From assembly GCF_019880225.1 (NCBI RefSeq), contig NZ_CP082284.1, forward strand, positions 62,001 through 126,000: 64,000 nt of DNA. The letters are read 5' to 3'. This DNA comes from Halobaculum rubrum. Lineage in GTDB: Archaea > Halobacteriota > Halobacteria > Halobacteriales > Haloferacaceae. The notes under the pieces were generated by a model. It was not told the origin of the DNA. It ran no database searches and worked only from the letters and a program-made list of their open reading frames with translations. Position 1 is the first letter of the stretch. Each line of letters begins with the position of its first letter. Both the position numbers and the translations under genes were made by a program. Below, in pieces: positions 24,049 to 25,930 of the stretch.

Positions 24049-24207
24049 ATGGCCGACCACCACGACCACGACCACTTCAAGGAGTTCGACTACGAGCGCG
24101 TCACCTCCCCGATGCAGGAGATCACGAGCGGGAAGGCGGTCACCGGCGCGGTCATCGCGCTCGTCGGCGTCCTCGTCGCCTTCGGGCTGCCGCTTGTGCT
24201 GGTTTGA
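24049..24207 (+). CDS. 52-residue His-rich single-helix membrane protein
   Basis: The N-terminus begins MADHHDHDHF (five His and three Asp in the first ten residues); a polar segment follows, then one hydrophobic helix (about 31-51) to the C-terminus. Small haloarchaeal proteins of this plan exist (DUF7550-like, from memory) and have no known function. The His/Asp head could bind metal; that is inference. A TATA-like gattaag lies about 35 nt upstream. The stop codon is immediately next to the IS605-like hairpin element, which may have inserted just after it. Confidence 0.7.
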   Translation: MADHHDHDHFKEFDYERVTSPMQEITSGKAVTGAVIALVGVLVAFGLPLVLV

Positions 24208-24210
24208 CAT

Positions 24211-24234
24211 CCTCTCCGCGCTGAAAGGGCGAGG
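24211..24234. repeat. Left hairpin of the IS605-like element
   Basis: cctctcc (24211-24217) pairs with ggcgagg (24228-24234) with one mismatch around gcgctgaaag. Confidence 0.65.
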
Positions 24235-24261
24235 ATTCCCACGGTACCGCACCGCTGGGTT

Positions 24262-24401
24262 GGGATGGTTACGGTTTGTAGCCATCCCGACGGACAGCTA
24301 CTGGCTGTGCCACCCAGCCGGTACTCCTATCCCGGCGTGGGATTCGGAGATACGTTTGCTGACTGCACCCCGTGTTCCGGGCAGAAGGGGATGCCTTCTG
24401 C
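24262..24401. ncRNA. Hairpin array, possible structured RNA
   Basis: Four consecutive stem-loops: gggatggtta/tagccatccc with a 7-nt loop (24262-24288, one G-U); acagc/gctgt (24294-24308); ccca..ccgg/ccgg..tggg (about 24313-24342); and gcagaagg/ccttctgc with a 5-nt loop (24381-24401, perfect). In TnpB elements the guide (omega) RNA lies at the tnpB 3' end and the element's right end, so this block could be an orphan omega-RNA-like sequence. Strand and expression are unknown. Confidence 0.35.
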
Positions 24402-24540
24402 GTGGAATCAGGGAATCCCGATACTGTCCGATTAAGCGGGCGGGCAGGCCGCCTCGGTTGGCTGTTAGTCGGGTGATGAGTTAGTTAAACCATCGGTTTG
24501 GGTAGTTCGGACGGTATTTCGGGAGAGGTGTCGGATTCAT

Positions 24541-24560
24541 CCCCGCGCTAAAGCACGGGG
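24541..24560. repeat. Right hairpin of the IS605-like element
   Basis: ccccgcgc (24541-24548) pairs with gcacgggg (24553-24560) with one mismatch around a taaa loop; same orientation and core as the left hairpin. Confidence 0.7.
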
Positions 24561-24589
24561 CTTTCTCCTCGTACTTCCGTAACTGCGGG

Positions 24590-25930
24590 TCATTCGGTTC
24601 CGTTCACGCGGACGCTGACCGCTCCGTCGCTCCCGGACGCCGTGGCGCGCGTCACGAACCGCTCGTCGCCGAGCAGCAGCACGACCGTCTCCGGCGCGGG
24701 GCGCTCGAGCCGGACCCTCGACGCGTTCGCCGGTCGCGCCTCGCGCCACGTCTCGAACGCCGCCGCGAACGCCGTCGCGTTGGCGTCGTCGTCGAACCGG
24801 ATCGCCCACGCGTAGCCGGTTCGCGCCGACCCCTCCCCCCCGCCGTCGGCCCTGACGAATCGCCGTCGCACGTCGTTCCCCCAGCCGTGTGCGGCGTCCG
24901 CCGCCGTCGCCTCCTCGACCCCCGTTTCGAGCGTCACTCGGACGAACAGTTCGCCGTAGGTGTCCGTCGCGTCCGCGTCGCTCGTCCAGCCGTCCTCGGG
25001 CGCATCGCGGACGGTCAACGGGGCAACGGGCTCGCTGCCCGGCGGTCGGTCATGGAGCAACTCCTCGGCGGTGCGCGGCGGGTCGTCGTACACCGCCCCC
25101 ACCTCGCCGGGGCCGGACACGCGCGCGTCGACGTATCGCGCCCCGGCGAGGTACGGCGCGACGCCGAGCCGCTCGGCGGGCGACCCGTCGGCCGTCCGCG
25201 TCCGCAGCGACTCGGTCGGCGACGGAGCCTCCGGCGCGTATCGGCGGACGTACGCTCCCTCCACGTACGTCGCCGCCCCCTCGACGATCGCCGCCTGCAG
25301 CAGCCGCTCGGCGGTCGACCCCGACGGCGCCGCGGCGGTCCCGGCGAGCCGTTCGAACGCGTCGGTCCGGTACTGAACGACGTGGACCGACTCGTGCGCC
25401 AGCGTCGACTCCGTCCGTGCCTCGTCCGCGAGGATCGCCTCGTTGACGACGACCGTCTCGGGCGTCGCGACGTACGCCGCCGCGGTGAGCGCGCGCTCGC
25501 GATCCTCGCTCACACGGAACCCGAGCAGCCGGTAGAACTCGGCGTATTCGGCTCCACCCAACTCCATCGACTCGGTCGGCTCGAGACGGACGACCGACGG
25601 CGGCACGACCGCGGGTCGATCCGTCGCGACCGCCACGCGAGCGAACACCAAGCCGTATTCGACCGGCAGCGATCCGCCAGCGACGCGAACGTCGTACTTC
25701 TCGGCGAGCGCTTGCGGCGACGCCGTCGATGCCGTCGCTGACGCCGTGGTCGAGGGCGGCGAGATCGGCGAATCCGGAGAGGTCGACGAATCAGGCGGGC
25801 TCGGCGCCGTCGCGGTCATCGTCTCCCGATCCGACGCCGAGGGGTCGCTATCGGCCGCCGGCGGCGCCGCGGGAGCCGCACAGCCGGCGACGACCAGGAG
25901 GGCGGCGACGAGGAGCGTCCGGAGGGACAC
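24590..25930 (-). CDS. Secreted lipoprotein with HExxH metallopeptidase-like motif
   Basis: 446 residues. A signal peptide ends in the lipobox VVAGC (Cys17), so the mature protein should be lipid-anchored outside the cell after a Ser/Thr/Pro linker (about 20-75). An AHESVHVVQ segment (HExxH, near residue 178) in a helix, plus Glu residues about 40 positions later (VEGAATYVEG), resembles a gluzincin zinc site. The C-terminal part has repeated Ala/Thr-rich beta-like blocks. It may match the haloarchaeal Hvo_1808-type surface protein family (from memory). Protease activity is inference. It ends 20 nt from the IS605-like hairpin. Confidence 0.88.
   Translation of the reverse strand: MSLRTLLVAALLVVAGCAAPAAPPAADSDPSASDRETMTATAPSPPDSSTSPDSPISPPSTTASATASTASPQALAEKYDVRVAGGSLPVEYGLVFARVAVATDRPAVVPPSVVRLEPTESMELGGAEYAEFYRLLGFRVSEDRERALTAAAYVATPETVVVNEAILADEARTESTLAHESVHVVQYRTDAFERLAGTAAAPSGSTAERLLQAAIVEGAATYVEGAYVRRYAPEAPSPTESLRTRTADGSPAERLGVAPYLAGARYVDARVSGPGEVGAVYDDPPRTAEELLHDRPPGSEPVAPLTVRDAPEDGWTSDADATDTYGELFVRVTLETGVEEATAADAAHGWGNDVRRRFVRADGGGEGSARTGYAWAIRFDDDANATAFAAAFETWREARPANASRVRLERPAPETVVLLLGDERFVTRATASGSDGAVSVRVNGTE

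Follow-up and report, generated by a model that had tools for sequence, protein, structure and literature searches.

The insertion and its neighbours

The window analysed here is a stretch of 64,000 nucleotides of the Halobaculum rubrum chromosome (NZ_CP082284.1, positions 62,001 to 126,000). On its plus strand, a gene coding for a 52-aa protein (DUF7550, PF24418; Pfam, 70.5 bits) occupies positions 24049-24207, and a convergent gene for a protein of 446 aa without Pfam match lies at 24590-25930 on the minus strand. Between the two extends a mini-element of 375 bp (24204-24578), whose functional strand is the minus strand and whose LE faces the 446-aa gene. Read on this strand, it follows a TTAC tetranucleotide, starts with GGAAGTACGAGG, and terminates with GAGGATGTCAA. 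These borders rest on an alignment of five genomic copies, the flanks of which are unrelated outside the element, and on empty sites in congeners. The GC content is 0.57-0.61 within the element versus 0.66-0.78 in the flanks. An ORF check of the element revealed no protein-coding ORF of note, and neither tnpA nor tnpB was found inside it. The possibility of a coding region was rejected because of in-frame stops and indels in the conserved domain. An earlier note on this stretch, made from the sequence alone, had drawn the borders at 24208-24570, a few bases short at either end, and had described the element as gene-free and as differing in base composition from its surroundings. The latter holds, but "gene-free" applies to protein genes only, as the minus strand appears to contain an RNA gene that the note had missed.

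The five copies in this genome are 96-100% identical over their full length and dispersed in the chromosome (positions 86180-86600 for the window copy, 2659488, 2704456, 931417, and 2426756). TTAC precedes every one of them, as well as most other family members, and TCAA terminates all five. Empty sites exist at the same locus in four congeners (G003, G005, G006, and G009). One congener empty site reads CTGGTC TGACTGCGGATCACCCGG, and the window minus the element reads CTGGTG TAACTGCGGGTCATTCGG. Comparison of the congener empty sites revealed no target duplication, and insertion 3' of the target without duplication is a criterion of IS200/IS605 elements that is met here. Five near-identical, dispersed copies together with the congener empty sites place the element far beyond chance. 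At three further chromosomal positions (1351795, 1153549, and 2264296) only the LE end matches, with 83-93% identity; these may be solo ends or parts of other elements.

End signals of the IS608 type

In IS608, the left and right cleavage sites (CL and CR) are TTAC and TCAA, and the left and right guide tetranucleotides (GL and GR) are AAAG and GAAT (PMC5934647). All four signals are found letter for letter, and at the expected places, on the minus strand of the element. The left cleavage and target site TTAC (24579-24582) corresponds to GTAA on the plus strand, which is the former G plus TAA stop of the 52-aa gene. The left guide AAAG (24561-24564) lies directly 5' of the LE subterminal hairpin CCCCGTGC-TTTA-GCGCGGGG (24541-24560). 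At the other end, the right guide GAAT (24235-24238) is followed by the RE subterminal hairpin (24211-24234) and by the right cleavage site TCAA (24204-24207), whose plus-strand complement TTGA contains the stop codon TGA of the 52-aa gene. The hairpins of both ends are on the same strand, as required of the IS200/IS605 family. In the family of related elements, the right guide and the right cleavage site co-vary, with GAAT/TCAA in 87 copies and GAAG/TCAC in 12. Two palindromes of the same orientation with a shared core had been claimed by the earlier note, and both claims hold: the palindromes are the two hairpins located above, and their direct-repeat cores TCCTCTCCGCGCTGAA and TCATCCCCGCGCTAAA are 81% identical over 16 nt.

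The element is a genuine mobile insertion with IS608-type end signals and without a transposase. It is a non-autonomous IS200/IS605 (IS608-type) element that resembles the palindrome-associated transposable elements (PATEs) described in Haloquadratum walsbyi (Dyall-Smith et al. 2011; PMC3119063). It meets the criteria for PATEs in being short, having near-terminal palindromes, lacking inverted repeats and target duplication, and occurring in multiple copies at more than 90% identity. A MITE was rejected, since the ends GGAAGT and TGTCAA form no terminal inverted repeats. The IS200/IS605-like, PATE-like reading offered by the earlier note is thus upheld by the five copies, the empty sites, the IS608 tetranucleotides, and the absence of tnpA and tnpB. 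Checks of the kind it had proposed gave positive results: near-identical copies were found in the same genome (five, at 96-100% identity), empty sites in related strains (the four congeners), and full-length relatives in many other haloarchaeal genera.

Insertion at stop codons

On the opposite strand, the target TTAC reads GTAA and the TCAA end reads TTGA, so that a gene ending in NNG TAA becomes one ending in NNT TGA. The GTG TAA of the 52-aa gene (...CTG GTG TAA in the empty site) became GTT TGA, in which the valine is kept and the TTGA of the element (24204-24207) supplies an in-frame stop. The 52-aa protein is unchanged by the insertion, and the congener orthologues end in the same way. 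The view that the element starts exactly at the stop of this gene therefore needs correction, because the stop is provided by the element's own terminal TTGA. Four of the five local copies lie at gene stops in this manner, namely in the 52-aa gene and in ORFs of approximately 453, 236, and 247 codons (stop to stop). Across the family, the fraction found at stops is 15 of 81 for the copies and 57 of 1136 for the control GTAA sites (Fisher p 3e-5). The codon-usage score behind this enrichment is crude, and the controls include intragenic sites where insertions would be purged. The enrichment thus indicates where copies survive rather than a targeting preference, and the placement at stop codons is most simply due to tolerated insertions. 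An element with TTAC/TCAA ends can enter the end of a gene without altering protein length.

A structured RNA on the minus strand

The element carries a conserved structured RNA of approximately 258 nt, which consists of a 5' domain of its own and a sot0042-like omegaRNA scaffold that ends at the RE. A predicted BRE/TATA promoter (24481-24496, minus strand) with the sequence CCGATGGTTTAACTAA is conserved, its consensus being aCGGAtgTTTTAA. In 53 non-redundant copies this BRE/TATA-like motif lies about 31 nt ahead of the 5' domain (CCGAGG), and based on this fixed distance the RNA start is placed near CCGAGG; the start is predicted, as transcription was not measured. The 5' domain (24356-24461, minus strand; CCGAGGCGG..CCGCC) contains an invariant GGCGG/CCGCC hairpin (24439-24457), a second, covarying hairpin (24381-24401), and a likely pseudoknot with 24365-24371. 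The pseudoknot pairs are out of register across subfamilies and were thus counted only on 28 main-clade sequences. The scaffold (24213-24355, minus strand) matches the Rfam model RF02656 (sot0042) over its whole length with 57.5 bits (E 6e-14). This score does not reach the Rfam gathering score of 88, because one scaffold arm is shortened. Matches to sot0042 were obtained in all five local copies and in the mini-elements of six other genomes. Weak, sub-threshold matches to Rfam HgcC (RF00062) overlap or adjoin guide-RNA scaffolds at four loci (L014, L015, L019, and L022), and a relationship of HgcC itself to IS605-type RNAs is possible.

Covariation was assessed with 40 diverse, non-redundant sequences, in which 91.9% of the cells are paired. 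Cells changed on both sides number 166 versus 59 in shuffled alignments (0/500), and slid versions of the structure gave 25-57. Pairs with double changes were no more numerous than in the shuffles (77 of 500); the signal therefore resides in the cells and in the covariation score. RNAalifold reported a compensatory change in 17 of 44 pairs, and the fold of the window RNA has a z-score of -4.5. The mean identity of the window copy to distant relatives is 0.80 in the 5' core and 0.76 in the scaffold but 0.40 in the spacer. A caveat is that GAAT, TCAA, and the hairpin of the RE also have to function as DNA ends. The scaffold interior (approximately 110 nt) is outside the needs of TnpA at IS608 ends, and its conservation therefore points to an RNA function. 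Such a function is probable in view of the compensatory base changes across the 40 diverse copies, but there are no expression or binding data. Among the criteria for an omegaRNA, a conserved, covarying scaffold that ends at the RE is present, whereas linkage of tnpB in cis is not. By analogy with the arrangement known for TnpB omegaRNAs, the predicted guide would be the flank read out of the RE (24184-24203, minus strand), a stretch that runs antisense to the gene for the 52-aa protein at its 3' end.

An old lineage of mini-elements in haloarchaea

Full-length relatives of 350-380 bp with 65-91% identity occur in many haloarchaeal genera. They include copies in H. hubeiense (91.5%) and on H. 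salinarum pNRC200 (79%); a plasmid of Halobaculum limi also gave a match. The full-length H. salinarum copy is located at 267912-268286 of pNRC200 (L264:4001-4375) and on PHS2 of strain R1 (L266:2475-2849); no feature is assigned to it in the annotation table examined. A degenerate pattern of the 5' domain matched 107 stretches in genome contigs, and the records inspected are all Halobacteria or haloarchaeal MAGs. Of the 107 matches, 80 were inspected in their surroundings, and each belongs to a mini-element, be it complete, partial, or truncated at an edge. When a profile of the 5' domain was applied to the fetched loci, the scaffold lay 48-66 nt downstream in 171 of 178 matches (duplicates included). 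In one further match the distance was 136 nt, and of the other six, five are at locus edges. Among more than 100 haloarchaeal copies, the 5' domain was never found beside tnpB and was seen in mini-elements only. Scaffold matches without a 5' domain number 64, and upstream of 33 of them a C-terminal motif of tnpB is present.

The mini-elements most likely represent an old, independently propagating lineage, because the architecture of approximately 370 bp recurs at 65-90% identity and the 5' domain was never found with tnpB. A deletion remnant of a local tnpB element was rejected for the same reasons, and the suggestion in the earlier note of a decayed IS1341-type copy is likewise disfavoured. 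As regards viral carriage, no match to the 5'-domain pattern was found in viral contigs and no blastn match in phages; of a Halorubrum copy, only a 42-bp terminal piece matched, in one phage. The Halorubrum tailed virus OP630575 (L267:901-950) contains a terminal-only form of about 50 bp, in which LE is joined to RE via a single hairpin, with a TCAC flank and a TCAA end.

A proposed dependence on TnpA and TnpB in trans

Since no Y1 TnpA is encoded inside the element, the criterion for an autonomous IS is not met. The only TnpA of the genome is encoded elsewhere on the chromosome, at position 2591899, within a tnpA-tnpB element (L015) with TTAC/AAAG signals. Three TnpB are encoded in the genome. 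A tnpB-only element at 1885088 (L014) has the signals TTAC/AAAG/GAAT/TCAA and a canonical sot0042 RNA (186.8 bits). In its TnpB, the sequence VVGDLSGIRE takes the place of the E-D-L motif that many TnpBs possess, and the catalytic glutamate is possibly relocated. Since TnpB is nearly universal (87 of 99 relatives), its co-occurrence with mini-elements proves little. TnpA is absent from several genomes with related elements (G001, G010, and G080); the copies there must presently be immobile or use another source.

We tentatively favour the view that the element is a PATE that serves as a self-contained guide-RNA gene and is mobilised and retained by TnpA and TnpB in trans, with the action of TnpA, transcription, TnpB loading, and retention being inferred. 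In this model, a Y1 transposase from elsewhere, here the one at 2591899, would cut at TTAC and TCAA and move the element. The element's own BRE/TATA promoter would drive an RNA through the RE into the flank, of which approximately 16-20 nt would become the guide. A TnpB from elsewhere would load this RNA and cut chromosomes with an empty site (TTAC plus guide), although no binding data exist. The best local candidate is the TnpB with a 433-aa frame at 1885088, whose element shares the end signals and has the canonical sot0042 RNA. Repair of the cut from an occupied copy would then retain the element. Insertion at an opposite-strand GTAA stop would be neutral for the protein, an in-frame stop being restored by the TTGA end. 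A bolder reading, for and against which we see equally good reasons, is that these are RNA-only transposons found throughout the class Halobacteria, which depend on TnpA in trans for movement and on TnpB in trans, with their own guide RNA, for retention, and which have added a 5' pseudoknot domain restricted to such elements.

Alternatively, the same mobile element may encode not a productive guide but a decoy or inhibitor omegaRNA of TnpB, or an RNA antisense to host genes. This remains possible, as the scaffold is shortened when compared with sot0042, the extra 5' pseudoknot domain is absent from tnpB elements, and a read-through RNA would run antisense to the 52-aa gene. However, conservation of the scaffold extends to the RE, the point at which a guide would begin, and the guides differ at every copy, which excludes a common host target. 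Less plausibly, the element could be a pure DNA parasite, that is, an IS1341-type deletion remnant still movable by TnpA, whose RNA features are functionless relics. PATEs that arose by core deletion are known in Haloquadratum (PMC3119063), and the ends match resident tnpB elements. This is difficult to reconcile, however, with compensatory changes in the interior, a 5' domain found in no tnpB element, a conserved promoter-like motif, and the maintenance of length and layout across genera at 65-80% identity. That the conserved interior is merely a single-stranded DNA fold used in transposition, without any RNA, is very unlikely: the RNA strand is the one with the IS608-like hairpins and G-T pairs are possible in DNA, but short terminal regions suffice for ends of the IS608 type, a promoter motif lies upstream at a fixed distance, and RNAs of the family matched by the scaffold have been described as expressed (PMC12558985).

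Comparison with known systems

PATEs are usually regarded as dead ends of IS605-type transposons. If the mini-element does contain a guide-RNA gene under selection, TnpB would act in trans for elements to which it is not linked. This would have implications for the persistence of tnpB-only elements and for the origin of stand-alone guide RNAs and the separation of nuclease and guide in CRISPR-like systems. The pNRC200 copy makes this proposal testable in the model organism Halobacterium salinarum. No prior description of non-autonomous elements with TnpB guide RNAs, or of the 5' pseudoknot RNA domain, was found in the literature searched, which largely did not extend to subscription papers and preprints.

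For the PATE of halovirus HRTV-DL1 (OP630574, L268:600-1100), strong transcription of the 3' end has been reported (PMC10544981). It is also a mini IS605-type element, but it is 489 bp long, has ends that look TCAC-type, lacks a 5'-domain match, and matches the scaffold model only at the RE end. It was therefore rejected as a family member and represents another PATE family, which has an RNA of its own. IS608 has the same CL, CR, GL, GR, and subterminal hairpins as the mini-element, which differs in lacking tnpA and tnpB. The PATEs of Haloquadratum (PMC3119063) are likewise too short for a transposase, have near-terminal palindromes without inverted terminal repeats or target duplication, and form homogeneous sets of copies more than 90% identical with IS605-type-related ends. 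They were, however, treated as DNA remnants, and the relevant sections describe no guide-RNA scaffold, promoter, or 5' RNA domain. The haloarchaeal sotRNAs, which are equated with omegaRNAs (RF02656; PMC12558985), share with the mini-element RNA the scaffold, its position at the RE, and the flanking DNA after the end. A sotRNA normally overlaps the 3' end of tnpB, whereas the mini-element has no tnpB, has one scaffold arm shortened, and has gained a promoter and a 5' domain.
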